A stretch of 64,000 bases of DNA from Actinotalea sp. JY-7876 (lineage in GTDB: Bacteria; Actinomycetota; Actinomycetes; Actinomycetales; Cellulomonadaceae), in NCBI RefSeq assembly GCF_014042015.1, contig NZ_CP059493.1, positions 1,860,001 through 1,924,000 of the forward strand, given 5' to 3'. The notes under the pieces were generated by a model. It made no database searches, was not told the DNA's origin, and worked only from the letters and a program-made list of their open reading frames with translations. Shown here one piece after another: positions 24,406 through 54,202 of this stretch; the first letter of the stretch is position 1; every line of letters starts with the position of its first letter. The position numbers and the translations under genes were made by a program.

Positions 24406-24490
24406 TGCGGGGGCCGGTTCGTCCTGCGGGGCGCCCGCTAGTGTCGTGCTCACCAGCCCGCACAGCCACCGAGACAGGACGTGCCCGGCG

Positions 24491-25171: not shown

Positions 25172-25174
25172 GCC

Positions 25175-25208
25175 GGTCGGCGCGGGTCGGACCGACGCCG
25201 CGCCGACC
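25175..25208. terminator. Bidirectional terminator-like hairpin
   Basis: A perfect 11-bp stem, GGTCGGCGCGG (25175-25185) with CCGCGCCGACC (25198-25208), encloses a 12-base loop that can itself fold (GTCGG/CCGAC). It lies in the 51-base gap between the convergent gntR-type and dehydrogenase genes. There is no U tract, as is common for terminators in high-GC actinobacteria. Confidence 0.6.
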
Positions 25209-25222
25209 GACGACGGACGAGC

Positions 25223-27633: not shown

Positions 27634-27654
27634 GCGGGCTCCTTCGGCAGTCTG

Positions 27655-27669
27655 TGCATGTTGCATGCA
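27655..27669. promoter_or_regulatory. Palindromic operator TGCATG-ttg-CATGCA
   Basis: A perfect inverted repeat with 6-bp arms and 3-bp centre in the 81-base gap between the divergent larA homologue and larE. A -10-like TATCCT follows at 27671-27676 in the larE direction, so a bound protein could block both promoters. The FCD-type GntR protein at 24491 is the nearest regulator of suitable kind; that assignment is inferred. Confidence 0.5.
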
Positions 27670-27714
27670 GTATCCTCTACGGAACGGTGCCCGGGCACCA
27701 GGCAGGAGGATGAC

Positions 27715-28644
27715 GTGGTCCGCATGGCCCCACCCGCCGCCCGCGGCGACCTCGCCGCGCGCGAGCCGGAGGAGACCTCCGCGGAGGCGGTCGAGCAGCG
27801 GATCGTCACCGCGCTGGCCCGCACCGGTGCCGACGGCCGACCCGCGTTCTCCCCCGGTTCCCCCCTCGGCGTCGCGTACTCCGGGGGCGTCGACTCCGCG
27901 GTCGTGGTCGCCGTCGCCGCACGTGCCTTCGGCGCGGGGGCGGTGCGCGCGCTGCTCGGCGTCTCGCCGTCGCTGGCGCGGCGTGAGCGCACGCTCGCGC
28001 ACGCCACCGCGGCAGGGCTCGGGGTGCAGGTCGTCGAGGTCCCCACCCACGAGATGGCCAACCCGGCGTACCGCGCCAACGCGGCCGACCGCTGCTTCCA
28101 CTGCAAGGACGAGCTCTTCACACGCATCGACGACGACCTCGTCGCGCGCCTGCGTCTGGCCGCCGTCGCCTACGGCGAGAACGCGGACGACGTGCTGCGG
28201 CCCGACCGACCCGGGTCGCGCGCCGCGAGCGCCCACGCCGTGCTGCGGCCGCTCGCTGATGCCGGCGTGACGAAGGCGGAGGTGCGCGCGGTTGCGCGCC
28301 GCCTGGGCCTGACGGTCGCCGAGAAGCCGGCCGCGCCCTGCCTCGCCTCGCGGATCCCGCACGGCGTCGAGGTCACTCCCGAGCGCCTGCGGCAGGCGGA
28401 GGCGGCCGAGGACGCCGTGCTGCGGCTCGGTTTCGCCGACTGCCGCGTGCGCCATCACGGGGAGGTCGCGCGCATCGAGGTCCCCGCCGCGGACCTCGGA
28501 CGACTCGTCGCGCCCGACGTGCGAGGCGAGCTGGTCGCGGCGGTGCGCGCGGTCGGATTCCGGTTCGTCACCGTCGACCTGGCCGGTATCCAGTCCGGCG
28601 CCTTCACCCTGCCCCTGGTCGAGGTCAGCCGTGGACCGCGATGA
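27715..28644 (+). CDS. larE: ATP-dependent sacrificial sulfur transferase LarE
   Basis: A 309-residue PP-loop protein that activates and thiolates the pyridinium dicarboxylate intermediate of the nickel-pincer cofactor. The ATP motif YSGGVDSAV is near residue 60. RCFHCKDELF and the PCLASRIPHG motif are present; the cysteine of PCLASR corresponds to the sacrificial sulfur donor of lactobacillar LarE. The GTG at 27715 is chosen because GGAGG lies six bases upstream. It overlaps larBC by 14 bases. A paralogue is at 43480. Confidence 0.85.
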   Translation: MVRMAPPAARGDLAAREPEETSAEAVEQRIVTALARTGADGRPAFSPGSPLGVAYSGGVDSAVVVAVAARAFGAGAVRALLGVSPSLARRERTLAHATAAGLGVQVVEVPTHEMANPAYRANAADRCFHCKDELFTRIDDDLVARLRLAAVAYGENADDVLRPDRPGSRAASAHAVLRPLADAGVTKAEVRAVARRLGLTVAEKPAAPCLASRIPHGVEVTPERLRQAEAAEDAVLRLGFADCRVRHHGEVARIEVPAADLGRLVAPDVRGELVAAVRAVGFRFVTVDLAGIQSGAFTLPLVEVSRGPR

Positions 28645-30136
28645 CCTGAGCGGCGTGGCCCACCTCGACCACGACCGCCTCCGGCGCCGCGGCTACCCGG
28701 AGGCCGTCCTCGCCGACGCCAAGACACCGGAGCAGCTCGGCAGGATCGCGCGCGCCCTGCGCGAGCGCGGCCCCGACCGCCTCCCGACGGTCTTCACACG
28801 GGTCGACGACGCACGGGCCGCCGCCGTGCTCGCCGAGCTGCCCGACGCGCGGTACGAGCCCGTGCCCCGCCTGGTGATCTGGCCGGCGGCACCGCCCGAG
28901 GTCAGCGGCGGCCTCGTGGTCGTGGCGTGCGCGGGCACCTCGGACCTCCCTGTCGCGACGGAGGCGGCGCTCGTCGCCTCGTCCTCGGGCCGACCGACCG
29001 AGCTGGTCGTGGACATCGGCGTCGCCGGCCTGCACCGGGTGCTGGACCGGCTCGAGCTGCTGCGCTCAGCCGCCGCGATCGTCGTCGTTGCGGGGATGGA
29101 CGGCGCCCTGCCCGGCGTGATCGCGGGACTGGTCAGCGCCCCCGTGGTGGCCGTCCCGACGTCGGTCGGCTACGGCGCCGCCTTCGGCGGTCTCGCGCCC
29201 CTGCTCACCATGCTCACGTCGTGCGCGCCGGGCGTCGCGGTCGTCAACATCGACAACGGGTACGGCGCGGGCCACCTCGCCGCGCAGATCGCGGCGCCCG
29301 CGACACCACCGGCCGCCGCTGCACCGGACACCGCGGCACCGGACACGGCCGTGGGCCGGACGCTGTGGCTCGACGCCTCCGCGGGGATCGCGGGCGACAT
29401 GCTGCTCGGCGCCCTGCTGGACGCGGGCGCACCGCTCGCGTCGGTGCAGGCGGCGGTCGACGCCGTCACCCCCGGCTCCGTCCGGCTCTCCGTGCGGCCG
29501 GTGACACGCGGCGGCCAGCGTGCGACGAAGGTCGACGTCGACGTGCTCGTGCCGGACCCGCCCCACCGCACCTGGGCCGCCGTCGAGGAGCACCTCGAGG
29601 CGGCACCGCTGCACGCCGAGACCCGCGCCCTCGCGTCGGCCGTCTTCCGGCGGCTCGCCGAGGCGGAGGGTCACGTCCACGGCGTCGACCCGGCGTCGGT
29701 GCACTTCCACGAGGTCGGGGCCCTGGACGCGATCGCGGACGTGGTCGGGACCTGCGAGGCGCTGCGCCTGCTCGGCGTCACCGAGGTCGTCGGCACGCCC
29801 GTGGCGGTGGGCAGCGGCCACGTGGACGGCGCCCACGGCCGCATGCCGGTGCCCGTGCCGGCCGTGGCGCAGCTGGCCCTCGGCTGGCCGACCACCTCCG
29901 GGGACCTGGCGAGACCCCCGGGCGACCACGAGGGGTCCGGCGGCGGCGCACTGGGCGAGCTCGCGACACCGACCGGGATGGCCCTGCTGCGCGCGCTTGC
30001 CCCCGGCTGGGGGCCGGTGCCCACCATGGTCACGGTCGCCGTGGGCGTCGGCGCCGGCACCCGGGACCCCGCAGGCCGTGCCAACGTCGTCCGCGCGGTC
30101 CTCGGGCACCGGGGAGCACCGGCGGCCGCACGGTGA
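28631..30136 (+). CDS. larBC: Fused LarB-LarC1 nickel-pincer cofactor biosynthesis protein, LarC2 absent
   Basis: A 501-residue fusion. Residues 1 to about 228 are LarB, the carboxylase/hydrolase that makes the dicarboxylated nicotinate mononucleotide; it resembles PurE, with GTSDLPVATEAAL, GMDGALPGVIAGL and VVNIDNGYGAGHLAAQIAAP. After an alanine/proline linker, residues about 246-490 are the LarC1 domain (WLDASAGIAGDMLLGAL, VHFHEVGALDAIADVVG). The protein ends at ANVVRAVLGHRG, where the paralogue at 41536 continues into LarC2 (EANVDDLDPRVW). LarC2 is needed for CTP-dependent nickel insertion in known systems, so it must come from elsewhere. The GTG start lies within larE. Confidence 0.82.
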   Translation: MDRDDLSGVAHLDHDRLRRRGYPEAVLADAKTPEQLGRIARALRERGPDRLPTVFTRVDDARAAAVLAELPDARYEPVPRLVIWPAAPPEVSGGLVVVACAGTSDLPVATEAALVASSSGRPTELVVDIGVAGLHRVLDRLELLRSAAAIVVVAGMDGALPGVIAGLVSAPVVAVPTSVGYGAAFGGLAPLLTMLTSCAPGVAVVNIDNGYGAGHLAAQIAAPATPPAAAAPDTAAPDTAVGRTLWLDASAGIAGDMLLGALLDAGAPLASVQAAVDAVTPGSVRLSVRPVTRGGQRATKVDVDVLVPDPPHRTWAAVEEHLEAAPLHAETRALASAVFRRLAEAEGHVHGVDPASVHFHEVGALDAIADVVGTCEALRLLGVTEVVGTPVAVGSGHVDGAHGRMPVPVPAVAQLALGWPTTSGDLARPPGDHEGSGGGALGELATPTGMALLRALAPGWGPVPTMVTVAVGVGAGTRDPAGRANVVRAVLGHRGAPAAAR

Positions 30137-41535: not shown

Positions 41536-42747
41536 GTGACGACGATCTGGATCGATGCGTCCGCCGGCGTGGCCGGCGACATGCTGCTCGGCGCGCTGGT
41601 GGACGCCGGCGCCCCGCTGCCGGCGCTGCAGGAGGCGGTCGACGCCGTCGTGCCCGGCGCCGTGGCGCTGCGCGTGGAGCAGGTCCGGCGCGCCGGGCTG
41701 CGCGCGGCCAAGGTGCACGTGGACGTGCTCGTGGAGGACCCGCCGCACCGGACCTGGTCCACGATCCGCGGGCTGCTCGCCGCGGCCGACCTGCCCGAGG
41801 AGGTCCGGTCCCGTGCCGGGGCGACGTTCGAGCGGCTCGCCGACGCCGAGGGGCGCGTGCACGGGGTCCCCGCCGCCGAGGTCCACTTCCACGAGGTCGG
41901 CGCCCTCGACGCGATCGCCGACGTCGTCGGCACGGCGGCCGGCCTGGCCGCCCTCGGTGCGGAGCGTGTCGTCGTCTCCCCCGTCGCCCTGGGCTCGGGC
42001 ACCGTCCGGGCGCACCACGGCGTGCTGCCCGTGCCCGCCCCGGCGGTGCTCGAGCTGTCCCGTGGGTGGGCCGTGCTCGCGGGCGGCGACGGCGAGCTCG
42101 CGACGCCGACGGGCCTGGCGCTGGTCACCGCGCTGGCCGGGTCGTCCGGCCCGCTGCCGGCGATGACCGTCACCGGCAGCGGCATCGGCGCCGGCACGCG
42201 CGACACGCCGCACCGCGCCAACGTCGTGCGCGTCGTGCTCGGCGACGAGTCACCCGCGGCGGCCGAGGCCGCCGGCGCCCCGACCTCCGCCGTGCTCCTC
42301 GAGGCGAACGTCGACGACCTCGACCCGCGCGTGTGGCCCGAGGTGCTCACCGAGCTGCTCGGCCGGGGCGCCCTGGACGCCTGGCTCAGTCCCGTCGTGA
42401 TGAAGAAGGGGCGACCCGCGCACACGCTCCACGTGCTCAGCGGGCACGACGGCGCCGACGCCCTGGCCGACGTCGTGCTCGAGCACACGTCCACCCTCGG
42501 CGTGCGTCGCTCCTCGGTGCAGCGGGAGGTCCTGGAGCGCGCCTGGGTGCCGGTCGACGTCCAGGACGGCACGGTGCGCGTCAAGGTCGGCCACCGCGAC
42601 GGGCGGGTGCTGCAGGCGATGCCCGAGTTCGACGACGTGGTGGCGCTGGCGCACGGGTCCGGCCGGCCGGTCGCGGTCGTCCTGGCCGCGGCGCGCGCGG
42701 CCGCCCACGCCGCAGGCCTGGTCGCCGGCGCCTCCTGGCCCCGGTGA
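41536..42747 (+). CDS. larC: Nickel-pincer cofactor biosynthesis protein LarC (full length)
   Basis: A 403-residue protein with both LarC domains in one frame. LarC1 is residues about 1-240 (WIDASAGVAGDMLLGALVDAG, VHFHEVGALDAIADVVG, ATPTGLALV), and LarC2 is about 255-395 (EANVDDLDPRVWPEVLTELL, VVMKKGRPAHTLHVL). LarC is the CTP-dependent nickel insertase that completes the cofactor. In some lactobacilli the two parts are joined by a frameshift; here they are continuous. GTG start with GAGGAG upstream. It converges on larB with 26 bases between. Confidence 0.88.
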   Translation: MTTIWIDASAGVAGDMLLGALVDAGAPLPALQEAVDAVVPGAVALRVEQVRRAGLRAAKVHVDVLVEDPPHRTWSTIRGLLAAADLPEEVRSRAGATFERLADAEGRVHGVPAAEVHFHEVGALDAIADVVGTAAGLAALGAERVVVSPVALGSGTVRAHHGVLPVPAPAVLELSRGWAVLAGGDGELATPTGLALVTALAGSSGPLPAMTVTGSGIGAGTRDTPHRANVVRVVLGDESPAAAEAAGAPTSAVLLEANVDDLDPRVWPEVLTELLGRGALDAWLSPVVMKKGRPAHTLHVLSGHDGADALADVVLEHTSTLGVRRSSVQREVLERAWVPVDVQDGTVRVKVGHRDGRVLQAMPEFDDVVALAHGSGRPVAVVLAAARAAAHAAGLVAGASWPR

Positions 42748-42773: not shown

Positions 42774-43487
42774 TCAGGCCGGCTGGGGCGCCGCGATCTG
42801 CGCCGCGAGGTGCCCGGCGCCGTAGCCGTTGTCGATGTTGACGACGGCGACACCCGGGGCGCACGCGGTGAGCATGGTCAGCAGGGGGGCCACACCCTGG
42901 AAGGCGGCGCCGTAGCCGACCGACGTCGGCACGGCCACGACCGGCGCGCTGACCAGTCCCGCCACCACGCCCGGCAGAGCGCCGTCCATCCCGGCGGCGA
43001 CGACCACGACGCGGGCGGCGCGCAGCAGCTCCAGGTGCTCGAGCACGCGGTGCAGCCCCGCCACCCCGACGTCCACGACCAGGCTCGTCGCCCGGCCCAG
43101 GTGCTGGGCCGTGAGGGCCGCCTCGGCGGCGACCGGGAGGTCCGACGTGCCGGCCGCCAGCACCACGACGTGCCCGCCGCTCGGCGCGGGCGGACGCGCC
43201 GGCCAGGCCACGACCCGCGCGACCGGGTCGTGGTGCGCGTCCGGCAGCGCCTCCAGGACGGCGGCGGCCTGCTCCGGCGTCGCGCGCGTGAACAGCGTGC
43301 GCGCCCCCCGGTCGCCGACCTCGCGCGCGATCGCGGCGACCTGGTCCACGGTCTTCGGCTCGCACAGCACCGCCTCCGCGAAGCCGCGGCGCCGCGCCCG
43401 GTCGTGGTCGAGGCGCACGAAGGCGTCCAGCGCGGCGGGCGGCGACCAGGCCGCCGGGGCGCCGCCGTCCGGCACGGCCTCAGCCAC
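42774..43487 (-). CDS. larB: Nickel-pincer cofactor biosynthesis protein LarB
   Basis: A 237-residue LarB with a PurE-like C-terminal domain: GTSDLPVAAEAAL, GMDGALPGVVAGLVSAPVVAVPTSVGYGAAF and VVNIDNGYGAGHLAAQIAAP. It carboxylates and hydrolyses nicotinic acid adenine dinucleotide in the first cofactor step. It is very similar over its length to the LarB half of the fusion at 28631, so the two sets arose by duplication or share a recent ancestor. Its GTG start lies inside the end of larE (8-base overlap). Confidence 0.87.
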   Translation of the reverse strand: MAEAVPDGGAPAAWSPPAALDAFVRLDHDRARRRGFAEAVLCEPKTVDQVAAIAREVGDRGARTLFTRATPEQAAAVLEALPDAHHDPVARVVAWPARPPAPSGGHVVVLAAGTSDLPVAAEAALTAQHLGRATSLVVDVGVAGLHRVLEHLELLRAARVVVVAAGMDGALPGVVAGLVSAPVVAVPTSVGYGAAFQGVAPLLTMLTACAPGVAVVNIDNGYGAGHLAAQIAAPQPA

Positions 43488-44385
43488 GGTGGTCCCCTCC
43501 CCCGCGCGCCGTCACGAGCGGCAGGGTGAAGGCGCCCGACTGCACCCCCGCGAGGTCGAGCGCGACGAAGCGGAACCCCGCCGAGCGCACGGCGCGCAGG
43601 ACCTCGCCCCGCAACGGCTCCGAGGCGACGGCGACGACCTGCTCGGCCGGGACCTCGAGCCGCGCGACGTCGCCGTGGTGCCGCACGCGCAGGTCGCCGA
43701 GCCCGACCCGCCGCAGTGCCGCCTCGGCGGCCTCCACCTGCGCGAGCTTGTCCGGCGTGACCTCCTCGAAGTGCGGGATGCGCGAGGCGAGGCACGGGGC
43801 GGCGGGCTTGTCCGCCGACGGCAGGCGCAGCGCTCGCGCCACGCGCCGCACGGCCTGCTTGTCGAGCCCGGCGTCCGCGAGGGGCCGCAGCACGGCGTGC
43901 GACGTCGCGGCGCGCGAGCCGGGGCGGTCGGGCCGGCGGGCGTCGTCGGCGTTCTCCCCGTACGCGACGGCCGTCAGCCCGTGGGCCTCGACCACCTCGT
44001 CACCGATGCGCGCGAAGAGCTCGTCCTTGCAGAAGAAGCACCGGTCCGGTCCGTTGCGGCGGTACTCCGGGTTCTCGCCCTCGTGCGTGCGGACCTCGAC
44101 CACGGGCGCACCGACGGCGCGCGCGACGTCGTGCGCCGCGGTGCGCTCGTCCGCCGCGAGGCTCGGGGAGACGCCGAGCACGGCCACGACCCGCTCGGCC
44201 CCGAGCGCCCGGACGGCCAGGCCCAGGACCACCGACGAGTCGACGCCTCCGGAGAAGGCGACGCCGAGGCGACCGGAGGGCACGGCGCGCCGCAGCGCCG
44301 CGGAGACGTGCTCCACGGCGCCGCGGTCGTCCGGGCCCAGCGGGTCCGCCCAGCGGGTGCCGGGCCGGTCCACCGGTGCGTGCAT
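43480..44385 (-). CDS. larE: ATP-dependent sacrificial sulfur transferase LarE
   Basis: A 301-residue LarE paralogue with PP-loop FSGGVDSSV, CFFCKDELF and the sulfur-donor motif PCLASRIPH. Its ATG at 44385 overlaps by one base the stop of the GPH symporter gene (TGATG) and has GGGAGG upstream, so cofactor synthesis is transcribed with glucuronide uptake and hydrolysis. This arrangement is strong context evidence that the pathway needs a nickel-pincer enzyme. Confidence 0.87.
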   Translation of the reverse strand: MHAPVDRPGTRWADPLGPDDRGAVEHVSAALRRAVPSGRLGVAFSGGVDSSVVLGLAVRALGAERVVAVLGVSPSLAADERTAAHDVARAVGAPVVEVRTHEGENPEYRRNGPDRCFFCKDELFARIGDEVVEAHGLTAVAYGENADDARRPDRPGSRAATSHAVLRPLADAGLDKQAVRRVARALRLPSADKPAAPCLASRIPHFEEVTPDKLAQVEAAEAALRRVGLGDLRVRHHGDVARLEVPAEQVVAVASEPLRGEVLRAVRSAGFRFVALDLAGVQSGAFTLPLVTARGGGDHRG

Positions 44386-45818
44386 CAGACCTCCCGCGAT
44401 CCGTCCGTGGCGGCGCCGGCGCGTGCGGCGCGCCGGGCCTCGACCTCGCCGACCATAGACCGGAAGACCTTCTCCGTGAGCGGGTAGGCCAGCATGATGA
44501 GCACGCCGACGGCGATGAACACGGCGGGGACGAAGCCCGCGATGTAGCGGATGCCGTCGGTCGTGGCCTGCGTCTGCTGCTCCGCCTCGGCGACGTAGCC
44601 GACCAGCCCGAGCCCGTACGCGGCGGCCGCCCCGCCCACGGCCTGGCCGAGCTTGCGGGTGAAGGAGAACACGGCGTAGGTGGTGCCCTCGGTGCGGACC
44701 CCGCTGCGCCACTCGCCGTACTCGACGGTGTCCGCCTCGAGCGCGAACATCAGCATGTTCACGGCGGCGAGCCCGATGCCGTACAGGCCGAAGAAGACGA
44801 TCGCGAGCCACGACATGGTGGGCGGCGTGAGGGCCACGCCGGTCGCGGCCACGACGGCCAGGGCGCCCGCACCGACGTACGCGGCCTTCTTGCCGACGCC
44901 GCGCACGAGCCTGGGGATGACCGGCGCGACCGCGAACATCGCCAGCGTGCTGACCACCGTCAGGACGATGAACAGGTTCGCGTCCCCCAGGACGTCACGG
45001 GCGTAGTAGGCCTGCACGGTCTGCAACGTGAACATGCCCGTGAGGAAGCACAGCGCCGACAGGCACAGCATGAGCAGCGGCCTGTTGCCCCTGAGGGTGC
45101 CCAGGCTCTGGCGCAGGCTCACCCTCGCCACGTCGCGGACGACGTTCTCCCGCGAGGTCCGGAAGAGCAGGCCGTACAGCCCGAGCCCCACGACGACGAA
45201 GAGCAGCGTGGTGAGCGTCAGGGACTGCTGCAGGTCGTCCGAGCGGGTGATCTGCGGCGCGACGACGAACGCCAGCAAGATCATCGTGGCGGCGGTGCCC
45301 ACCATCCGGAAGCTCGCCAGCTTGGCGCGCTCCTCGGGGACCTGCGTCATCGCCGACGCGAGCGAGCCGTACGGGATGTTGACGAGGCTGTACGCCAGCC
45401 CCAGCAGCGCGTACGTGACGTACGCGTAGACGAGCGTGCCGGTGCCCCCGAGCCCGCCCGGCACCGTGAAGGTCGCCACGCTCAGGAGCAGCAGGGGCAG
45501 CGAGCCGAAGAGGAAGAACGGACGGAACTTGCCCCACCGCGTCATCGTCCGGTCCACGAGGCGGCCCGCGAAGATGTCGGCGAACGCGTCCCACGCCCGC
45601 ACGACGAGGAAGAGCGTGCCCGCCGCGGCGGCCGAGATGCCCACGACGTCGGTGTAGTAGAGCAGCAGGAACATCGACGACATGGAGAACGCGAGGTTGT
45701 TCGCGGCGTCGCCCGAGGCGTAGCCGACCAGCTGCGACAGGCGCAGCCTCCCGCCGGTGGCGGGTGCCGGCGTGGCCGACGGGACGGAGGCTGCCGGGGC
45801 AGCCGCGGTGCTGGTCAT
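44385..45818 (-). CDS. GPH-family sugar/glucuronide cation symporter
   Basis: A 477-residue transporter with about 12 transmembrane helices, of the glycoside-pentoside-hexuronide:cation family (MelB/UidB type). LSQLVGYASGDAANNLAFSM and the helix 2-3 region FAGRLVDRTMTRWGKFRPFFL (conserved D-R-T-x-x-x-W-G-K/R-F-R-P) are diagnostic. Its position directly after the beta-glucuronidase gene suggests a glucuronide or uronate as substrate. The ATG at 45818 is chosen because an earlier in-frame ATG would add 35 low-complexity residues. Confidence 0.85.
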   Translation of the reverse strand: MTSTAAAPAASVPSATPAPATGGRLRLSQLVGYASGDAANNLAFSMSSMFLLLYYTDVVGISAAAAGTLFLVVRAWDAFADIFAGRLVDRTMTRWGKFRPFFLFGSLPLLLLSVATFTVPGGLGGTGTLVYAYVTYALLGLAYSLVNIPYGSLASAMTQVPEERAKLASFRMVGTAATMILLAFVVAPQITRSDDLQQSLTLTTLLFVVVGLGLYGLLFRTSRENVVRDVARVSLRQSLGTLRGNRPLLMLCLSALCFLTGMFTLQTVQAYYARDVLGDANLFIVLTVVSTLAMFAVAPVIPRLVRGVGKKAAYVGAGALAVVAATGVALTPPTMSWLAIVFFGLYGIGLAAVNMLMFALEADTVEYGEWRSGVRTEGTTYAVFSFTRKLGQAVGGAAAAYGLGLVGYVAEAEQQTQATTDGIRYIAGFVPAVFIAVGVLIMLAYPLTEKVFRSMVGEVEARRAARAGAATDGSREV

Positions 45819-45912
45819 GGCACTCCCTCGATCGGTGGCGGACCCGGCGGTGCCGGTGGTGGCTCCGGGGACGGTGGCGGTGCTGCGCAGCGGCGCGGGG
45901 GGACGCCGGTGG

Positions 45913-47694
45913 TCAGCGGTCACGGGTCCAGCGGCGGCGCAGCGCGTGCGCCGCCGCCTTCGGGCGCCGGTCGCGCGTGAAGGCGCCCTTCTTGTTGCCG
46001 TCGACGCGGAACACGCCCGACGACGTCGCGAAGTCCGCGAAGTTCCACACGTGCTCGCCGACGACCGCGTCGACGGCGTCGAACACGCGGTGGTTCATGT
46101 CGAGGTACTCGACCTGGTACTCCTCGGTCCACGGGACCGGGGTGACCGAGTGCAGGCCCGGCATGGTGTCGGCGCCGTACTCGGTGATGATGATCGGCTT
46201 GCCGTCGGAGGCCCACTGGCCGAGCTCCTCGCGCCAGGCGGCCTCGGCGGCCTCGAGGTCACCCGTGTGGACGTACCAGCCGTAGTACCGGTTGAGCATG
46301 AGCACGTCGCCGAGCTGGGAGACCTGGCACGCGCCGTGGGGCGCGAGCATGACGTTGACGAACCCCACGGGCCGGCTCGGGTCGAGCTCGCGCGTGAGGG
46401 CGAAGAGCGGCTCGAAGTACTCGCGGGCCGCGTCCGTGTCGGACTCGGGCTCGTTCGCGATCGACCAGAGCACGACGCTCGGGTGGTTCTTGTCCCGCGC
46501 GACCAGCTCGCGGATCGCGCGGGCGTGCACCTCGCGGGTCGCGTCGTTGATCGTCTCCGGCGAGAACGTCGGGTACCCCTGGGTGCCGAAGATCCCGCCG
46601 CCCAGGCCCATGTTCAGGCCGACGGCGGCGACCTCGTCGATGACGACGATGCCGCGCCGGTCCGCGTAGTCGTAGACCTCGTCGGCGTAGGGGTAGTGCG
46701 AGGTGCGGAACGAGTTGGCGCCGATCCAGTCGAGCAGGGCGAAGTCGTTGACGAGGTGGACGTCGTCGTGGGCCTTGCCCCGCACGGGCGCGTCCTCGTG
46801 CTTGCCGAAGCCGGTGAAGTAGAACGGCTCGCCGTTGATGAGGAACTGCGTGCCCCGGACCTCGACGGTCCGGATCCCGACGCTCTGGAGGTAGCTGTCG
46901 AGCGTCGCGCCGTCGGCGTCGAGCAGCTCGACCTCGGCCTCGTAGAGGTACCCGTCGCCCGGCGCCCACAGGTGGGCACGCGCGACCTCGAGCTCGGCCC
47001 GGGCGCCCTCGCCCGTCGCCACCGCACGGCCGTCGGCGTCGCGCAGGGTGACGCGCACGGCGACACCGCCCGAGTGCTCGACCTCGTAGCGCACGACGCC
47101 GGTCACGCCGTCCTCGCCTACCTCGGTCACCACCCGCACGTCGGTGACGTGCTCGGGCGCCGTGGCGTACAGCCACACCGAGCGGTGCAGGCCCGCGTAG
47201 TTGAAGAAGTCGTGGAAGTAGCGCTGGCGCCGCCCGTGCGGCGTGTCCTCGACGATGCCGGGCGGGATCGTCTGGAAGCTCAGCTCGTTGTTGACGACGG
47301 CGGTCACGCGGACCTCCTCGCCGGGGGCGACCAGTGCGGTGACGTCGGCCTCGAACGGCGTGTAGCCACCCTCGTGCGTCATGACCTCCGTGTCGCCGAC
47401 CCACACGACCGCGCGGTGCGTCGCGGAGTCGAACCGCAGCACCACGCGCCGGCCGGCCCAGCCGCGCGGGACGCGGACGACGGTCTGGTACCAGACGTCG
47501 CCCACGTGGTCGCGCGCGTCGGCGTCGGCCGGGACGTCGTTGTAGCTGGCGGGGACCGGCATCGACGTCGCACCCTCGAGGCGCCCGGCGAACCAGCCCG
47601 CCGCGCGGCCCTCGCCCGCCGCGTCGAGCCGGAAGTCCCAGAGGCCGTCGAGCGCCTTGCGCTCCCGCGTGCTGGTGTCCTGGGGACGAAGCAT
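45913..47694 (-). CDS. uidA: Beta-glucuronidase (GH2)
   Basis: A 593-residue GH2 enzyme, nearly the length of E. coli UidA (603). Sugar-binding domain at residues about 15-185, beta-sandwich to about 280, then TIM barrel. NSFRTSHYPY, acid/base Glu in SIANEPES and nucleophile Glu in ITEYGADT are clear. The NKKGAFTRDRRPK loop carries the Asn-x-Lys motif that recognises the glucuronate carboxylate, which separates glucuronidases from other GH2 enzymes. No signal peptide is present. It leads the minus-strand operon uidA-symporter-larE-larB. Confidence 0.88.
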   Translation of the reverse strand: MLRPQDTSTRERKALDGLWDFRLDAAGEGRAAGWFAGRLEGATSMPVPASYNDVPADADARDHVGDVWYQTVVRVPRGWAGRRVVLRFDSATHRAVVWVGDTEVMTHEGGYTPFEADVTALVAPGEEVRVTAVVNNELSFQTIPPGIVEDTPHGRRQRYFHDFFNYAGLHRSVWLYATAPEHVTDVRVVTEVGEDGVTGVVRYEVEHSGGVAVRVTLRDADGRAVATGEGARAELEVARAHLWAPGDGYLYEAEVELLDADGATLDSYLQSVGIRTVEVRGTQFLINGEPFYFTGFGKHEDAPVRGKAHDDVHLVNDFALLDWIGANSFRTSHYPYADEVYDYADRRGIVVIDEVAAVGLNMGLGGGIFGTQGYPTFSPETINDATREVHARAIRELVARDKNHPSVVLWSIANEPESDTDAAREYFEPLFALTRELDPSRPVGFVNVMLAPHGACQVSQLGDVLMLNRYYGWYVHTGDLEAAEAAWREELGQWASDGKPIIITEYGADTMPGLHSVTPVPWTEEYQVEYLDMNHRVFDAVDAVVGEHVWNFADFATSSGVFRVDGNKKGAFTRDRRPKAAAHALRRRWTRDR

Positions 47695-47781
47695 GTCGTG
47701 CTCCTCTCGGCCCGCGTCGGCCGCTCAAGGGATCCGGGACGTTCCCGCGTGCCTCCATTGAGCGCGTGCCGTCGCGGGGCG

Positions 47782-47804
47782 ACAAGCGGTTGCCATTCGT
47801 TGCC
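47782..47804 (+). promoter_or_regulatory. Shared 23-bp regulatory motif, copy B
   Basis: ACAAGCGGTTGC, CATTC, GTTGCC: an exact fit to the shared pattern. It lies 88 bases from the uidA start and 98 bases from the lacI start, in the divergent intergenic region. Likely operator for the LacI-family protein encoded next to it. Confidence 0.65.
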
Positions 47805-47836
47805 ACCCGGTCGGGCACGGCCCCCTCGGGGCAACG

Positions 47837-47859
47837 ACAACCGGTTGCCACCGGTTGCC
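47837..47859 (+). promoter_or_regulatory. Shared 23-bp regulatory motif, copy C
   Basis: ACAACCGGTTGC, CACCG, GTTGCC. The first half contains the perfect palindrome CAACCGGTTG with a central CG, the typical LacI-family core, and a further GTTGCC half-site sits about one helical turn downstream. It ends 20 bases before the lacI start codon, where repressor binding would block lacI transcription (autoregulation). Confidence 0.68.
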
Positions 47860-47879
47860 GCGAAACCTACGGTGGGGTG

Positions 47880-49016
47880 ATGGACGTCCAGGACGAGGGC
47901 ACGGCCCTCCCGGTCGCCGGCGCTGGGCCCCTCCGCCGCGCCACGCCGACCATCTACGACGTCGCGCGGGCCTGCGGGGTGGCGCCGTCCACGGTCTCGC
48001 GGACGTTCTCCCGCCCGGGCCGGGTCAACGCCGAGACCGCCGAGCGGATCCGCCAGACCGCCGCCGCCATGGGCTACCGCACCAACCCCCTCGCGCGCGC
48101 CCTGCCGACCGGCCGCACGTCGCTCCTCGCGCTCGTCGTCTCCGACGTCACGAACCCGTTCTTCTTCGACATCATCCGCGGCGCGCAGCAGGAGGCGAAC
48201 GCGGCGGGCTACACCATGCTGGTCGCCGACGTGGACGAGTCGAGCGAGGCCGAGCGCGAGGCGCTGGACCGGACCCTCCCGCTCGTCGAGGGGCTCGTCC
48301 TGGCGACGTCACGCATGTCGGACTCCGCGATCCGGGTCGCCGCGAAGCAGCGACCGACGGTCGTGCTCAACCGCGTCATGACCGACGTGCCGAGCGTCGT
48401 GACCGACAATGCGCGCGGGACGCGCCGCGCGGTCGAGCACCTCGCGGGCCTGGGGCACACGACGCTGACGTACCTGGCGGGTCCGGAGGCCTCGTGGGCC
48501 GACGGCATGCGCTGGCGCTCGATGCGCGAGGCGGCGTTCGAGCTCGATCTCCGGGTCCGGCGCCTCGGGCCGTTCCCGCCCACGCTCGCCGGCGGCGCGG
48601 CGGCGACGACGGCGCTCGCGGAGCAGCCGACGACGGCGGTCGTGGCCTACAACGACCTGCTGGCGATCGGGCTGATGCGCGGCCTCGCCGCGCTCGGCGC
48701 CCGCGTCCCGCAGGACGTCAGCGTGGTGGGCTTCGACAACATCTTCGGTGCGGACTTCTGCAGCCCGCCGCTGACGACGGTCGCCGCGCCGCTGCGCAAC
48801 CTCGGTGCGTACGCGGTGCGCTCGCTCCTGGAGCAGCACGACCGCCGCCAGCTCCGCGACGTGCGACCGGTGCTCCTGCCCGCCCAGCTGCTGGTCCGCG
48901 GGTCGACCGGCCCCCGGCCACGACGGCGCACGGGATGGGCCGCGCGCGCTCAGTCCGCCGCGGCGGGCGGCACGCCCGTGCCCGGCACCGCGACCGCGCC
49001 GAGCGCCGCCAGGTAG
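47880..49016 (+). CDS. LacI-family regulator of the glucuronide locus
   Basis: A 378-residue regulator: HTH TIYDVARACGVAPSTVSRTF, hinge region TNPLARAL, and a sugar-binding sensor domain (LALVVSDVTNPFFFDIIRGAQQEANAAGY ... VSVVGFDNIFGADFCSPPLTTV). About 35 low-complexity residues extend the C-terminus, overlapping the end of the convergent gluconokinase gene by 67 bases. The ATG at 47880 is used since upstream sequence holds operator copies. It most likely binds the shared 23-bp motif and senses a uronate or pathway intermediate. Confidence 0.85.
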   Translation: MDVQDEGTALPVAGAGPLRRATPTIYDVARACGVAPSTVSRTFSRPGRVNAETAERIRQTAAAMGYRTNPLARALPTGRTSLLALVVSDVTNPFFFDIIRGAQQEANAAGYTMLVADVDESSEAEREALDRTLPLVEGLVLATSRMSDSAIRVAAKQRPTVVLNRVMTDVPSVVTDNARGTRRAVEHLAGLGHTTLTYLAGPEASWADGMRWRSMREAAFELDLRVRRLGPFPPTLAGGAAATTALAEQPTTAVVAYNDLLAIGLMRGLAALGARVPQDVSVVGFDNIFGADFCSPPLTTVAAPLRNLGAYAVRSLLEQHDRRQLRDVRPVLLPAQLLVRGSTGPRPRRRTGWAARAQSAAAGGTPVPGTATAPSAAR

Positions 49017-50518
49017 CGCGGGACGCTCGCGCGGGCCGCGGCCAGGGCCGTGACGGCCTCGCGGTCCGGGACCACGACGTCGTCGTCCGTGCCGGTGCCG
49101 CCGAGGAGCGCGAGCGCCGCCGGCAGGTCCGGCGCGAGGCCGAGCGCGTGCGCACCGAGGGCCGCCGCGCCGAGCGCCGAGCCCGCGAGCGCGTCGACGA
49201 CGCGCACCGGGCGGTCGAGGGCCGCGGCGAGCGACGCGCGCCACACCGGCGAGCGCAGCGCTCCCCCGGTCGCGCGCACCTCGGTGACCGGGTGCAGGGC
49301 GTCGAGGCGCCGGACCAGGTCGGCCAGCTGGAGCGCGACGCCCTCGACGGCGGCGCGCACGAGGTGGCCGCGTCGGTGGCGTGCGGCCAGCCCGAGGTAG
49401 GCGCCCGGCAGGGTCGGGTCCCACGAGGGGGCGCGCTCCGGCAGGAGGTGGGGCAGCATCACCAGCCCGTCGCTGCCCGGCGGGACGGCCGCGGCCTCCG
49501 CCAGCAGCAGCGCCTCGGGGGCGTCGTGGTGCCCGCGCAGCTCGGGCGCGAACGCGTCGACGGCCCAGCCGAGCGCCACGCCTCCCGTGCTCACGGCGCC
49601 CCCGACGACGGACAGGTCGCCGCTGAGGGCGTAGCAGAACAGCGCGGGGTCGAGCCGCTCGGGCTGGTGCGCGATGACGGTGCGCACCGCGCCGGAGGTG
49701 CCGAGCGAGAGCCCGAGCACGCCGGGCGCGAGCGCGCGCACCCCCAGGTTGCCCAGGGGCCCGTCGGCGCCGCCGGCCACGACCGGCGTCCCGGCCGGCA
49801 GGCCGAGCCTGCGGGCGACGTCCGGGAGGAGGGCCAGGCGCTCCTCCGGCTCGACGACCCGGGGCAGGTGCGCGGCCGTGGTGCCGGCGACCGCCAGCGC
49901 GTGCGGGTCCCATGCCCGCGTCCGCCGGTCCCACAGGCCCGAGGCGGAGGCCGAGGACCGCTCGGTCACCACCTTCCCCGTGAGGTGGGCGAGCACGAGG
50001 GCCTTGAGGTCCGCCCAGCACGCGGTGCGGGCGACGGTCGCCGCGTCGTGCCGGGCCAGCCACGCGAGCTTGGTCAGCGGGGACATCGGGTGGACGGGCG
50101 TGCCGGTGCGGTCGTGGAGCACGGCCGCCGCGCCCGACGCCCGCAGCTGCCCGGCGACGTCCGCCGCGCGCCCGTCGGCCCAGGTCAGGAGCGGCGTCGT
50201 GGGCAGACCGGCGGCGTCCAGGCCGGCGAGCCCGTGCATCGCCGCGCTCACCGCGACGCCGGCGACGTCCGCACCGCCGACCGCGCGGACGCACTCCCCG
50301 AGGGCCCGCTCCAGGGCGCGCAGCACGTGCGCCGGGTCCTGCACCTGGTGGCCCGGTGCCGGCTCGAGCAGCGGGTAGTGGCGGCTCGCGACGCTGCGCC
50401 GTCCCGTGCCGACCTCGAAGGCGACGGCCTTGACGGCGGTCGTGCCGACGTCGAGCCCGACGACCACCCGCGCCCGGTGTCCGGTGGACCCGGCGGCCGC
50501 GGCACCCGTGCCGCTCAT
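48950..50518 (-). CDS. FGGY-family gluconokinase
   Basis: A 522-residue FGGY kinase: GLDVGTTAVKAVAFE at the N-terminal phosphate loop, SAAMHGLAGLD, LTWADGRAADVA, and DRTGTPVHPMSPLTKLAWL, all of which match the Bacillus-type gluconokinase pattern more closely than xylulokinase. GLSLGTSGAVRTV and AVEGVALQLADLV lie in the second domain. It would phosphorylate D-gluconate to 6-phosphogluconate. Its start overlaps the dehydrogenase stop (ATGA). Xylulokinase or another FGGY activity is the main alternative. Confidence 0.75.
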   Translation of the reverse strand: MSGTGAAAAGSTGHRARVVVGLDVGTTAVKAVAFEVGTGRRSVASRHYPLLEPAPGHQVQDPAHVLRALERALGECVRAVGGADVAGVAVSAAMHGLAGLDAAGLPTTPLLTWADGRAADVAGQLRASGAAAVLHDRTGTPVHPMSPLTKLAWLARHDAATVARTACWADLKALVLAHLTGKVVTERSSASASGLWDRRTRAWDPHALAVAGTTAAHLPRVVEPEERLALLPDVARRLGLPAGTPVVAGGADGPLGNLGVRALAPGVLGLSLGTSGAVRTVIAHQPERLDPALFCYALSGDLSVVGGAVSTGGVALGWAVDAFAPELRGHHDAPEALLLAEAAAVPPGSDGLVMLPHLLPERAPSWDPTLPGAYLGLAARHRRGHLVRAAVEGVALQLADLVRRLDALHPVTEVRATGGALRSPVWRASLAAALDRPVRVVDALAGSALGAAALGAHALGLAPDLPAALALLGGTGTDDDVVVPDREAVTALAAARASVPRYLAALGAVAVPGTGVPPAAAD

Positions 50519-51909
50519 GGCCGCGCGACCTCCTCGATCTGGGCGAGCACCGCGGCGAGCACCGTCTCGTCCTGCGCGACCTCGGGGTCCAGCAGCGCGA
50601 GGACCCGGCGCACCGCGGGTGCCGTCGGCCCGGACGCGGCGACGCGCAGCCGCTCGCCGTCGGGGTCGCGCAGCGGGGCGTCGCCCCGCAGGTGGTGGAT
50701 CCAGGCGGCGACGACGCGGCTGGCGCCCGCCGCGAGCCCGCCCCGGGCGCGCTCCGCCCGCAGCGTCGGCAGGACGCGCACGGGCAGCTTGAGGGAGCCG
50801 TCCGCCGCGATCTGGTCCAGCCGGTGCCGGATGCTCGGGTTCGCGAAGCGCTCGAGGAGCGCGGCGCGGTAGGCGGCGACGTCGGCGGCGGGCAGGGGCA
50901 CATGGGCGGAGGCCTCGTCCCACCACTGCTCGACCCAGCCCCGGCAGGTCTCGTCCGCGATCGCCTCGGCGACGGTGCCGTGGCCGCGCGCGAGGCCGGC
51001 GTACGCGAGCAGCGAGTGGGCGCCGTTGAGGAGCCAGAGCTTGCGGCGCTCGTACGGCTCCACGTCGGGGACCACGAGCGCGCCCGCGGCCTCCCACGCC
51101 GGCCGCCCGGCGGCGAAGGTGCCCGCCATGACCCACTCGCTGAACGGCTCGGTGGTCACCGGGGCCGCGTCGAGCGCTCCGGTGACGGCGCGGACGCGGG
51201 CCACGTCCTCGGCGGTCGGCTCCGGCGTGATCCGGTCGACCATCGTGGTCACCGCCGTCACGTGCGCCGCGGCCCACGCCGCGAGCGCCGGGTCCAGCGC
51301 CTCCGCGAGGTCGAGGACGGCCCGGGCCACGGCCGCGCCGTTGCCGGGCAGGTTGTCGCACGGGACCAGGCTGAGCGGGCCCGCGTCGCTCCTGCGGCGT
51401 GCCGCGAGGCCGGCGACCAGCCGCCCGGGGGCGGTGGCGACCAGGGCGCGCGGGTCCGCCCGGAGCGCGGCCAGGTCCGCCCCCACGTCGGAGCGGTCCA
51501 GGTCGAGGTGCCCGTCCGGCCGCAGCGCGTAACCGGCCTCGGTGACGGTCGTGGTCACGAGCGCGACGCGGGGGTCCGCCAGGTACCGGAGCCACGCCTC
51601 GTGGTCGGCCGCCGCGTGGACGGCGGCCACCGACTCGACGACCTCGTACCGGTCCTGCGCCGCGCCCCGCACCGTGAGCGTGTAGACCGCGTCCTGCGCC
51701 GCGAGGGCGCGCGCGAGGTCGGGGCGGCGGCCGGTGAAGGCCGCGATCCCCCAGTCGCCGCCGTCGGGGGCGTGCTGGGTGTACCAGGCCTGGTGGGCCC
51801 GGAAGAAGCTGCCGAGGCCGAGGTGCACGTGCCGCACCGGCGGGCGGGGCGAGGAGCGGCGGGGGGCACCGCTCGACGACGTCGTCGCTGCGGTCGGTGC
51901 GGTGGTCAT
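50515..51909 (-). CDS. Mannitol dehydrogenase-family oxidoreductase, probable fructuronate reductase
   Basis: A 464-residue long-chain polyol dehydrogenase. HVHLGLGSFFRAHQAWYT is the N-terminal NAD-binding block, VPCDNLPGNGA the conserved middle block, and ERRKLWLLNGAHSLLAY carries the catalytic lysine and the NGxHS motif. The family includes fructuronate reductase (UxuB), tagaturonate reductase and mannitol/arabinitol dehydrogenases. Linkage to beta-glucuronidase and gluconokinase favours reduction of D-fructuronate to D-mannonate. It is transcribed with the kinase from a promoter shared with larA. Confidence 0.72.
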   Translation of the reverse strand: MTTAPTAATTSSSGAPRRSSPRPPVRHVHLGLGSFFRAHQAWYTQHAPDGGDWGIAAFTGRRPDLARALAAQDAVYTLTVRGAAQDRYEVVESVAAVHAAADHEAWLRYLADPRVALVTTTVTEAGYALRPDGHLDLDRSDVGADLAALRADPRALVATAPGRLVAGLAARRRSDAGPLSLVPCDNLPGNGAAVARAVLDLAEALDPALAAWAAAHVTAVTTMVDRITPEPTAEDVARVRAVTGALDAAPVTTEPFSEWVMAGTFAAGRPAWEAAGALVVPDVEPYERRKLWLLNGAHSLLAYAGLARGHGTVAEAIADETCRGWVEQWWDEASAHVPLPAADVAAYRAALLERFANPSIRHRLDQIAADGSLKLPVRVLPTLRAERARGGLAAGASRVVAAWIHHLRGDAPLRDPDGERLRVAASGPTAPAVRRVLALLDPEVAQDETVLAAVLAQIEEVARP

Positions 51910-51940
51910 CCCGCGAGTCTTCAGCGCCCGCACCGGAGCG

Positions 51941-51963
51941 ACAACCGGTTGCCGCCAGTTGCC
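51941..51963 (+). promoter_or_regulatory. Shared 23-bp regulatory motif, copy D
   Basis: ACAACCGGTTGC, CGCCA, GTTGCC, again with the CAACCGGTTG palindrome. It occupies the 98-base divergent gap between the fructuronate reductase-type gene and larA, so one bound repressor could silence both operons. Its near-identity with copy C joins these operons to the uidA-lacI regulon. Confidence 0.68.
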
Positions 51964-52007
51964 GGGCGACGTTGCTCCCCGACCGCGGTGACGGCAGGGT
52001 GGGGCCC

Positions 52008-53300
52008 ATGACGACGTCGACGACCACCACGCCCGAGACCGCCGCGGTGGTCGGCGACCCGACCAGCGTGCTGACGCCCGACGAGGTCCGCGCGTTCGTG
52101 GCCGAGCAGCTCGGCACGCTCGACCTCGACGGGCGCAGCCTGTGCCTCGTGGTCCCCGACGGGACCCGCTCCTGCCCCCTGCCCCTGCTGCTGCGGGCGG
52201 TCCACGAGAGCGTGCACGGCCGGGTGACGCACCTGACGGTGCTCGTCGCGCTGGGGACCCACGCACCCATGGGCGAGGCGGAGCTCGCACGCCACCTCGG
52301 GTACGCCGAGGGTGAGCTGGCGGCGACCTACCCCGGCACCACGGTCCTCAACCACGAGTGGTGGGACGAGGGCACGTTCGTCACGGTCGGCACCATCACG
52401 GCCGACCGCCTGGCCGAGCTGTCCGAGGGCCGCCTGGTGCGCGACGTCGAGGTGCGGCTCAACCGGGCCGTGGTCGAGCACGACGTCACCCTCATCGTCG
52501 GGCCGGTCTTCCCCCACGAGGTCGTCGGCTTCTCGGGCGGCAACAAGTACCTGTTCCCGGGCATCGCCGTGAAGGACGTCATCAACGTCTCGCACTGGCT
52601 GGGCGCCCTCATCTCCAGCGTCGAGATCATCGGGACGCGCGGGACGACGCCCGTGCGCGCGCTCATCGACGAGGCCGCCGCGCTCGTCCCGGGCGAGCGG
52701 CACGCCCTGTGCCTCGTGGTGCGCTCCGGCACGGCCGACCTGCACGCCGCGGCGTTCGGCACGCCCACGTCCGCGTGGGCGGCGGCCGCCGACGTGTCGG
52801 CACAGACCCACGTGCGCTACCTCGACGCGCCGGTGCGCCGGGTCCTGTCGCTGATCCCGGAGAAGTACGAGGACATGTGGACGGGCGCGAAGGGCTTCTA
52901 CAAGGTCGAGCCGGTCGTCGCCGACGGCGGCCAGGTGGTGCTCTACGCGCCGCACATCACGGAGATCTCCGTGATGCACCCGCAGATCGTGGAGATCGGC
53001 TACCACTGCCGCGACTACTTCGTGAAGCAGTGGGACCGCTTCAAGGACGTGCCCTGGGGCGACCTCGCGCACTCCACCCACCTGCGCGGCGCGGGCACCT
53101 ACGACGACGAGCACGGCGAGCGCTGCCGCGTGACGGTCACCCTCGCGACGGGCATCCCGGAGGAGGTCGTGCGCGCCGCCAACCTCGACTACCTGGACCC
53201 CGCCGAGGTGGACGTCGACGCGTGGTCCGCCGACCCGGACACGCTCGTCGTGCCGCAGGCGGGCGAGGTCCTGCACCGGCTCCGCGGCGTCGCGCCGTGA
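52008..53300 (+). CDS. LarA-family nickel-pincer racemase/epimerase, proposed mannonate/gluconate 2-epimerase
   Basis: A 430-residue LarA homologue of typical length. DGTR (51-54), GTHAPMGE (His85), His170, Lys180 in SGGNKYLFPG and His196 reproduce the LarA set; the spacings His170-Lys180 (10) and Lys180-His196 (16) equal those of Lactobacillus lactate racemase (174, 184, 200). Lysine binds the pincer nucleotide and histidines bind nickel or move protons. LarA relatives include a D-gluconate 2-epimerase. Here the enzyme lies in a regulon with UxuB-like and gluconokinase genes, so C2 epimerisation of D-mannonate to D-gluconate is proposed. It overlaps the mutarotase gene (GTGA). Confidence 0.8.
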   Translation: MTTSTTTTPETAAVVGDPTSVLTPDEVRAFVAEQLGTLDLDGRSLCLVVPDGTRSCPLPLLLRAVHESVHGRVTHLTVLVALGTHAPMGEAELARHLGYAEGELAATYPGTTVLNHEWWDEGTFVTVGTITADRLAELSEGRLVRDVEVRLNRAVVEHDVTLIVGPVFPHEVVGFSGGNKYLFPGIAVKDVINVSHWLGALISSVEIIGTRGTTPVRALIDEAAALVPGERHALCLVVRSGTADLHAAAFGTPTSAWAAAADVSAQTHVRYLDAPVRRVLSLIPEKYEDMWTGAKGFYKVEPVVADGGQVVLYAPHITEISVMHPQIVEIGYHCRDYFVKQWDRFKDVPWGDLAHSTHLRGAGTYDDEHGERCRVTVTLATGIPEEVVRAANLDYLDPAEVDVDAWSADPDTLVVPQAGEVLHRLRGVAP

Positions 53301-54202
53301 CCCTCCCCGCGGGCGTCACGCTCGCCGAGGGCGCCGGAGGGCTCCCCGTCGTCCGCGTCGAGAGCCCGGCCGCCACCGCCGTCGTGCACCTCCAGGGTGC
53401 CCACGTCCTCGAGTGGGCGCCCCGGGGGCACGGGCCGGTCCTGTTCCACAGCCGCGCGAGCCGGTTCGAGCCGGGCGTCGCCATCCGCGGCGGGATCCCG
53501 GTGTGCTTCCCGTGGTTCGGCGGGCACGCGAGCGGCGCGGGACCGGCGCACGGCTTCGCCCGCGTGAGCCGGTGGCGGCTCACGGGGGCCGAGCGGCGGG
53601 GCGAGGACGTCGCGCTGCGCCTGGGGCTGGGCGACGACGAGACGACGCGCAGCGGTCCGTGGCCGCACCGCTTCGCCGCCGAGCTCGAGGTCGTCGTCGG
53701 GCAGCGCCTGGGGATCACGCTGGCCGTCACCAACCTCGGCGACGCCGAGCTGACGTACGAGGCGGCCCTGCACACCTACCTGCGGGTGGCCGACGTCGGC
53801 CGCGTCCGCGTGACGGGGCTGGCGGGGCTGCCGTACCTCGACAAGGCGGCCGGGGGCGAGCGCGTCGGGCCGGGCGCGGAGCCGACGCTCGTCCGGGGCG
53901 AGGTCGACCGCGTCTACCTCGGCGCCGGCGAGCCCGTCGTCGTGCACGACGACGGGCGACGGGTCGTGGTGACCACGGACGGGGCCCGCGGCACGGTGCT
54001 CTGGAACCCCGGCCCGGACCGGGCTGCGGCGCTGCCCGACCTGGCCGACGACGAGTGGCCCGAGATGCTGTGCGTCGAGGCCGCCGACGTCGGGCAGGGG
54101 GCGGTGACGCTGGCGCCGGGCGAGACCGGCCGGACGGTCACCGTCCTCACGGTGGAGCCGGGGGGTCCCGGCGACCGGCGCGCACCGTCCCTCACGCGGT
54201 GA
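53297..54202 (+). CDS. Aldose 1-epimerase / D-hexose-6-phosphate mutarotase family protein
   Basis: A 301-residue galactose-mutarotase-fold protein of the YeaD type. AIRGGIPVCFPWFGGH, AHGFARVSRW (catalytic His) and LHTYLRVADV are visible, and Glu in MLCVEAADV matches the catalytic glutamate of the family. It would speed anomer exchange of a hexose, hexuronate or hexose phosphate. The GTG start overlaps the larA stop, so it probably serves the glucuronate pathway, perhaps converting beta-glucuronate released by UidA. Confidence 0.78.
   Translation: MTLPAGVTLAEGAGGLPVVRVESPAATAVVHLQGAHVLEWAPRGHGPVLFHSRASRFEPGVAIRGGIPVCFPWFGGHASGAGPAHGFARVSRWRLTGAERRGEDVALRLGLGDDETTRSGPWPHRFAAELEVVVGQRLGITLAVTNLGDAELTYEAALHTYLRVADVGRVRVTGLAGLPYLDKAAGGERVGPGAEPTLVRGEVDRVYLGAGEPVVVHDDGRRVVVTTDGARGTVLWNPGPDRAAALPDLADDEWPEMLCVEAADVGQGAVTLAPGETGRTVTVLTVEPGGPGDRRAPSLTR

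Follow-up and report, generated by a model that had tools for sequence, protein, structure and literature searches.

A predicted glucuronide regulon in Actinotalea sp. JY-7876 with a nickel-pincer LarA homologue as probable D-mannonate/D-gluconate 2-epimerase

A 64,000-nucleotide stretch of the genome of Actinotalea sp. JY-7876, positions C1:1860001-1924000 of a single contig of 3,546,809 bases and hereafter the window, encodes a homologue of LarA together with genes for glucuronide uptake and cleavage, for a reductase and a kinase, and for the synthesis of the nickel-pincer cofactor. We propose, with a probability of about 0.8, that these genes specify the breakdown of glucuronides through conversion of mannonate to gluconate by the LarA homologue, and onward to 6-phosphogluconate. 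The genes and sites of the locus, in window coordinates, are:

41536..42747, plus strand: larC, whose product inserts nickel into the pincer cofactor (PF01969, 4.9e-128; TIGR00299, 201 bits, cut-off 90; NF052512, 135, cut-off 50); start taken from the sequence; transcribed convergently to the larB-larE operon
42774..43487, minus strand: larB, pincer cofactor synthesis enzyme (NF033503, 269.8 bits, cut-off 175)
43480..44385, minus strand: larE, sacrificial sulfur transferase (TIGR00268, 265.9 bits, cut-off 150)
44385..45923, minus strand: uidB-like glucuronide:cation symporter of the GPH family (NF007353, 553 bits, cut-off 528)
45913..47694, minus strand: beta-glucuronidase (GUS), GH2 (NF007538, 912 bits, cut-off 544)
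47836-47849: palindromic operator GACAACCGGTTGCC in the divergent GUS/lacI promoter region, with near-copies at 47781-47794 (one mismatch) and 47846-47859 (two mismatches)
47880..49016, plus strand: LacI-family regulator (PF00356/PF13377)
48950..50518, minus strand: FGGY kinase, probable gluconokinase (TIGR01314 gntK, 307 bits, versus TIGR01312 XylB, 257; best PDB relative the gluconate kinase 3gbt)
50515..51909, minus strand: Mannitol_dh-family reductase, probable fructuronate reductase in the UxuB role (PF01232/PF08125); start read from the frame
51940-51953: palindromic operator GACAACCGGTTGCC in the divergent uxuB/larA-homologue promoter region
52008..53300, plus strand: LarA homologue of 430 aa, predicted nickel-pincer D-mannonate/D-gluconate 2-epimerase (GntE); closest structure 4nar, by sequence and by fold
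53297..54202, plus strand: aldose-1-epimerase-like mutarotase (PF01263, 2.4e-39), its substrate probably glucuronate

A first-pass annotation of this DNA had named these genes at or very near the positions recovered here from open reading frames (ORFs) and from Pfam and NCBIfam searches. In profile searches over the window GUS, the glucuronide transporter, LarB, LarE and LarC all exceed their curated NCBIfam cut-offs; the LarA homologue, the FGGY kinase and the Mannitol_dh reductase have Pfam matches and lie below every NCBIfam equivalog or subfamily cut-off listed. The annotation had also reported uxuA, kdgK and uxaC to be missing from the window, and tblastn with reference proteins indeed finds no match to them there.

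The two divergent intergenic regions, that between GUS and LacI and that between the reductase and the LarA homologue, share GACAACCGGTTGCC exactly. Across the whole 3.55-Mb genome the pattern GNCAACCGGTTGNC occurs at exactly two sites, 47836-47849 and 51940-51953, both of them divergent promoters, and its reversed control at none, so that the operator-like motifs remarked on earlier prove to be real. When up to two mismatches are allowed the window holds 8 sites against 3.5 expected, a number reached by 5 of 100 shuffles; given this modest excess, the weight of the argument rests on the exact genome-wide count. The motif is also found in 17 of 139 loci scanned (some of these stretches overlap, and three are from the JY-7876 genome), and lies directly upstream of the LarA homologue in three Actinotalea loci (L039, L040 and L041). 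The common operator thus suggests that glucuronide uptake and cleavage, cofactor synthesis, reductase, kinase and epimerase are tied together, and that the three operons probably form one LacI-controlled glucuronide regulon, presumably repressed by the LacI protein of the window.

Profile alignment of the LarA homologue onto the lactate racemase 2yjg places its residues D51, R54, H85, H170, K180, H196 and K295 at LarA D72, R75, H108, H174, K184, H200 and K298. These seven cofactor and catalytic residues, which had been described as intact, are invariant across 23 aligned actinobacterial sequences (including that of JY-7876) and are also present in Thermotoga maritima GntE2 (4nar). The predicted structure has the lactate-racemase fold, with 4nar nearest to it, and in structure searches the chains well above background in the lists shown belong to the LarA family alone; all three cofactor genes, larB, larC and larE, lie within the window. 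The substrate pocket of GntE enzymes is described as having the signature E, V, A and H at LarA positions 175, 176, 358 and 359 (PMC11770544). E171 and V172 of the window protein match the first two of these positions, and A354-H355, invariant in the 23 sequences, probably correspond to the other two, which lie beyond the point where the profile alignment stops.

Taken together, these features suggest a route in which the symporter would take up glucuronides and GUS would free beta-glucuronate, which the mutarotase may interconvert. UxaC, encoded outside the window, would convert glucuronate to fructuronate, and the UxuB-type reductase would reduce the latter to D-mannonate. The LarA homologue, carrying the cofactor made by LarB, LarE and LarC, would then invert D-mannonate at C2 by transient hydride transfer to give D-gluconate, which the FGGY kinase would phosphorylate to 6-phosphogluconate; 6-phosphogluconate dehydrogenase (Gnd) would finally yield ribulose 5-phosphate and CO2. 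The substrates and directions of the LarA homologue, reductase, kinase and mutarotase are what we infer. The reaction order and the mannonate/gluconate assignment, as laid out in the first-pass annotation, are well supported by conserved linkage, the partial active-site signature, the common operator, and the linkage to Gnd and gluconokinases in relatives.

To survey these relatives we used the best 80 of at least 567 confirmed relatives of the LarA homologue, each with up to 10 kb on either side (56 of the 80 loci are at least 20 kb long, and some others are short contigs). None of the 80 is named outside Actinobacteria, one being a metagenome-assembled genome labelled just 'bacterium', and the closest named ones belong to Actinotalea (Cellulomonadaceae), with LarA homologues of 92 and 90% identity. 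Within 10 kb of the LarA homologue tblastn finds UxuB in 47 loci, UxaC in 44, both in 42 and either in 49, along with LacI (41), LarE (32), LarC (31), LarB (29), GUS (17), UidB (11), an FGGY GntK (15), a KdgK-like PfkB kinase (7), ManD (1) and UxuA (0). UxaC is divergent from the LarA homologue and within 500 bp of it in 31 of the 80. In Actinotalea solisilvae (L040) it lies between the reductase and the LarA homologue, a position without UxaC in the window, suggesting that the window has lost it. The mutarotase gene also follows the LarA homologue in L039, L040 and L042.

Among the ORF clusters that recur around the LarA homologue one is Gnd, present above 250 bits in 14 of the 80 loci (15 with a fragment at a contig end; one representative was scored against NCBIfam). 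It lies within the lar clusters of five family genomes (G016, G050, G076, G079 and G081), all of which carry another full copy at a different place in the genome. The cluster of G081 combines in about 16 kb the kinase, reductase, UxaC, LarA homologue, LacI, GUS, UidB, Gnd, mutarotase, LarE, LarB and LarC. The gluconokinases found with the LarA homologue come from two non-homologous families, since besides the FGGY kinases P-loop enzymes of the GntK/IdnK type exceed the TIGR01313 cut-off in 5 of the 80 loci. Nine control loci around UxuA (L119-L125, L127 and L128) contain no Gnd, neither gluconokinase and no LarA homologue; L123 and L125 among them are shorter than 20 kb, L121 starts 2.3 kb from UxuA, and the UxuA-like genes of L124 and L127 are 33-35% identical to the references. 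Taken alone, the contrast in Gnd between 14 of 80 and 0 of 9 loci lacks significance (p 0.34); the case rests on the low chance rate, set at 1% from one or two gnd copies per genome. Recurrent clusters 10, 11 and 12 gave no family in the family search, which left out clusters 15, 18, 19 and 21. No phosphogluconate dehydratase exceeds its cut-off in the 12 genomes examined, and in JY-7876 a single decarboxylating Gnd exceeds its own, at C1:1936350-1937744, some 12 kb past the end of the window; 6-phosphogluconate thus most likely exits through Gnd.

The distribution of these genes was examined in 121 Cellulomonadaceae genomes (JY-7876 included) and in a class sample of 394 genomes. A close LarA homologue, counted at 68% identity or more with the weak or partial matches of G026 and G101 set aside, is present in 9 of the 121 family genomes. 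LarB exceeds its cut-off in ten, namely these nine and G026. UxuA occurs in 49 of the 121, in none of the nine with the LarA homologue as against 49 of the 112 others (Fisher p 0.0075); the exclusion persists when stratified over the three genera that hold the LarA homologue (p 0.007, or p 0.028 without a UxuA fragment in G047). UxaC is found in 94 genomes including all nine, an excess that is uninformative (9/9 versus 85/112, p 0.21).

A number of observations weigh against the proposed route, and some of them favor other explanations. The reductase scores 278 bits with the D-arabinitol dehydrogenase model and 248 with that of fructuronate reductase (NF011611, cut-off 603), reaching neither cut-off, and in a tree of 39 rows it falls outside the clade of E. 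coli UxuB. Likewise, the 307 bits of the kinase with the gluconokinase model TIGR01314 fall short of the cut-off of 648.55, although they exceed its equally sub-cut-off xylulokinase score of 257. Hence the earlier calls of a UxuB-type reductase and an FGGY gluconokinase are less firm than implied. The scores could be taken to mean that the pair is a polyol operon of D-arabinitol dehydrogenase and xylulokinase, unrelated to the LarA homologue; this has a negligible likelihood in our estimation, given that the gluconokinase model outranks the xylulokinase model in all five FGGY kinases scored from these clusters (307/257, 388/289, 311/262, 347/268 and 317/229), with the order reversed in two controls (E. 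coli XylB, 178/654, and a second xylulokinase-like protein, 69/353). The reductase moreover shares its operator with GUS, and in relatives it adjoins UxaC, in L122 as part of a UxuA-UxuB-UxaC row. From this linkage to UxaC and UxuA we infer a fructuronate reductase role. The UxuA-linked reductases of L120 and L122 join the window reductase in a nine-row group (support 98/96), apart from UxuB2 and E. coli UxuB/YdfI; those of L124 and L127, next to the divergent UxuA-like genes, fall with UxuB2 and E. coli UxuB, which again speaks against the assignment. At least in part, then, one type of reductase appears to feed either UxuA or the LarA homologue, making mannonate the branch point.

The neighborhoods also have gaps: 31 of the 80 loci have neither UxaC nor UxuB in the stretch searched (some being short contigs), a candidate kinase of some kind is found in 26 and none in 54, and the sole kinase found in the lar-cluster stretch of G050 is PfkB-like. 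Eight Kribbella loci (L072, L075, L079, L082, L084, L093, L096 and L098) share a conserved context of the LarA homologue that includes a cystathionine beta-synthase, with no match to lar genes, UxaC, UxuB or other reference genes nearby. In the class sample the LarA homologue (18 of 394 genomes) and UxuA (14 of 394) never occur together, a separation that carries no information (p 0.51). The LarA homologue itself scores 152.5 bits with the putative hexonate epimerase model NF052594 (LarAH group 18), below the cut-off of 500, and Corynebacterium glutamicum GntE1 (LarAH19) is reported to have a Michaelis constant of 120 mM for mannonate, its authors doubting that mannonate is the native substrate and suggesting glucarate/mannarate (PMC7583248). 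Accordingly, the window enzyme might act natively on another hydroxyacid, for instance an aldarate or some other hexonate, with its location reflecting a mere uronate context. We hold this to be highly unlikely, as the two C2 epimers are precisely what the neighboring reductase would produce and the neighboring kinase would use up, and as Gnd lies in many clusters; no aldarate enzyme is among the recurrent ORF clusters identified, some clusters being without identification and no search by name having been made. A further variant has the kinase act first, on D-mannonate, and the epimerase on 6-phosphomannonate, an order proposed for Lactobacillus suebicus (PMC6978723). It is hardly plausible here: characterized GntEs use free mannonate (PMC11770544, PMC7583248), and 5 of the 80 loci carry P-loop gluconokinases of the GntK/IdnK type, the E. 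coli gluconokinase being reported as inactive on mannonate (PMC6978723).

The strongest competitor of the epimerase route comes from the JY-7876 genome itself. UxaC is encoded elsewhere, as had been predicted, at C1:3127419-3128750 (NF002794, 518 bits, cut-off 387), in a locus (L025) that also encodes a UxaA-like protein, a LacI protein and another UxuB-like reductase. Another locus (L026) encodes ManD (NF043051, 659 bits, cut-off 550), a KdgK-like PfkB kinase, Eda (241, cut-off 156) and KduI (402, cut-off 250). A whole-genome check for uxaC, uxuA and kdgK, as proposed in the first-pass annotation, therefore recovers UxaC and a KdgK-like kinase, and gives no match to the UxuA family (PF03786). 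The lack of UxuA was considered as proof of a bypass in this strain and rejected, because the non-homologous mannonate dehydratase ManD is present with the KdgK-like kinase and Eda. With UxaC these make the classical route genetically possible, so that the earlier claim of a full bypass of mannonate dehydratase, 2-keto-3-deoxygluconate (KDG) kinase and 2-keto-3-deoxy-6-phosphogluconate (KDPG) aldolase in JY-7876 falls. ManD-type genes (NF011654 over cut-off, sought down to E 1e-60) are present in 60 of the 121 family genomes, among them 7 of the 9 with the LarA homologue, and KDPG aldolase in 108, including 8 of the 9 (that of G079 at just 124 bits). Glucuronate might then flow mainly through UxaC, a reductase, ManD, KdgK and Eda, leaving the LarA homologue a side role such as the conversion of gluconate to mannonate. 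We regard this as unlikely. The exact operator pattern is absent from the UxaC, ManD and Eda loci, and the UxaA-like and KduI genes beside UxaC and ManD suggest that they serve galacturonate or pectin use. The KDG route would also make the clustered gluconokinase and Gnd needless. Finally, G050 and G079 have neither UxuA nor a ManD-type match at E 1e-60, and in G050, where no KDPG aldolase was found either, the classical route does not appear genetically possible.

Several loci of the neighborhood sample show other arrangements. L105, L110, L111 and L115 show a row of Gnd, PfkB kinase and LarA homologue, with no UxaC or UxuB in the stretch, suggesting a PfkB-type gluconate kinase. In Nakamurella lactea (L090) the LarA homologue has two UxaC-UxuB units beside it, and in the Geodermatophilaceae genome URHB0062 (L060) it occurs with ManD, UxaA-like, Eda and KdgK-like genes, both routes being mixed in one locus. 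The LarE-like matches of L043, L057 and L073 are far more divergent than those elsewhere, at 38-39% identity.

The window contains a second lar set at 26137-30136. Its LarA-like gene (NF052592, LarAH14/15/16, 183 bits against a cut-off of 740) is divergent and lies on the minus strand; the plus strand carries another LarE and, after it, a 501-aa ORF (28631-30136) that covers LarB as well as LarC and is apparently a fusion of the two. The adjoining region 22780-26140 encodes a protein weakly resembling sulfoquinovose isomerase (45.8 bits, cut-off 700) and genes that by eye resemble a GntR regulator and a hydroxyacid dehydrogenase. These neighbors hint at a different hydroxyacid or sugar-acid pathway.

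On balance we favor the wider view that in scattered Actinobacteria glucuronate catabolism has been re-routed, the nickel-pincer epimerase replacing UxuA at the UxaC-UxuB locus and carbon entering as 6-phosphogluconate, often with a dedicated Gnd, and that this is the native role of LarAH19-type enzymes. The linkage with Gnd and two kinds of gluconokinase points to mannonate and gluconate as the native pair of the actinobacterial relatives of GntE1, provided that the window enzyme is itself a member of the GntE1 group. One group of nickel-pincer enzymes of uncertain substrate would thereby gain a probable native role, and some actinobacteria would be expected to depend on nickel for glucuronide use. 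Where ManD and KDPG aldolase are both missing, as in G050, growth on glucuronides should depend strictly on nickel, and the route would be redox-neutral down to ribulose 5-phosphate. Genomes that lack another route offer a clean genetic test. In the class sample the LarA homologue (18 of 394, E 1e-60) and UxuA (14 of 394, E 1e-40) are about equally common, as compared with 9 and 49 of 121 in the family, so that annotation by UxuA alone could misscore species as glucuronate-negative.

The reaction itself is already known, contrary to the novelty implied by the earlier annotation: a route from mannonate to 6-phosphogluconate was proposed for Thermotoga maritima in 2012 (Rodionova, as told in PMC7583248, PMC6978723 and PMC6353982), and in 2020 two GntEs, one from C. 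glutamicum, were demonstrated to carry out the epimerization in vitro (PMC7583248). A literature search, with most subscription journals outside its reach, found no paper on the pathway in Actinobacteria. What is new is the evidence for a native mannonate/gluconate role in Actinobacteria, and a Thermotoga-type branch that apparently stands in the place of UxuA and is joined to a probable glucuronide regulon, as well as, in several relatives, to an additional Gnd encoded within the cluster. The hexuronate branch of T. maritima (gntE, gntK) has the same proposed reactions from mannonate to 6-phosphogluconate and a homologous epimerase, GntE2, which is 35% identical to the window protein over the stretch compared and has the same catalytic residues and E loop residue. 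T. maritima also has a UxuA-family gene, as a control search showed, whereas the sampled Cellulomonadaceae with the LarA homologue have none; these, unlike Thermotoga, have entry through a glucuronide transporter and GUS, and Gnd linked in several clusters. The hybrid isomerase/phosphoketolase pathway of L. suebicus likewise leads mannonate into 6-phosphogluconate, and differs in its reported order, with the kinase before a 6-phosphomannonate epimerase that has no gene assigned to it (PMC6978723). With the canonical UxaC-UxuB-UxuA-KdgK-Eda pathway the window route has in common UxaC and the fructuronate reductase, the latter grouping with two of the four UxuA-linked reductases in the tree; in place of dehydration, mannonate would here undergo C2 epimerization, followed by gluconokinase and 6-phosphogluconate dehydrogenase.

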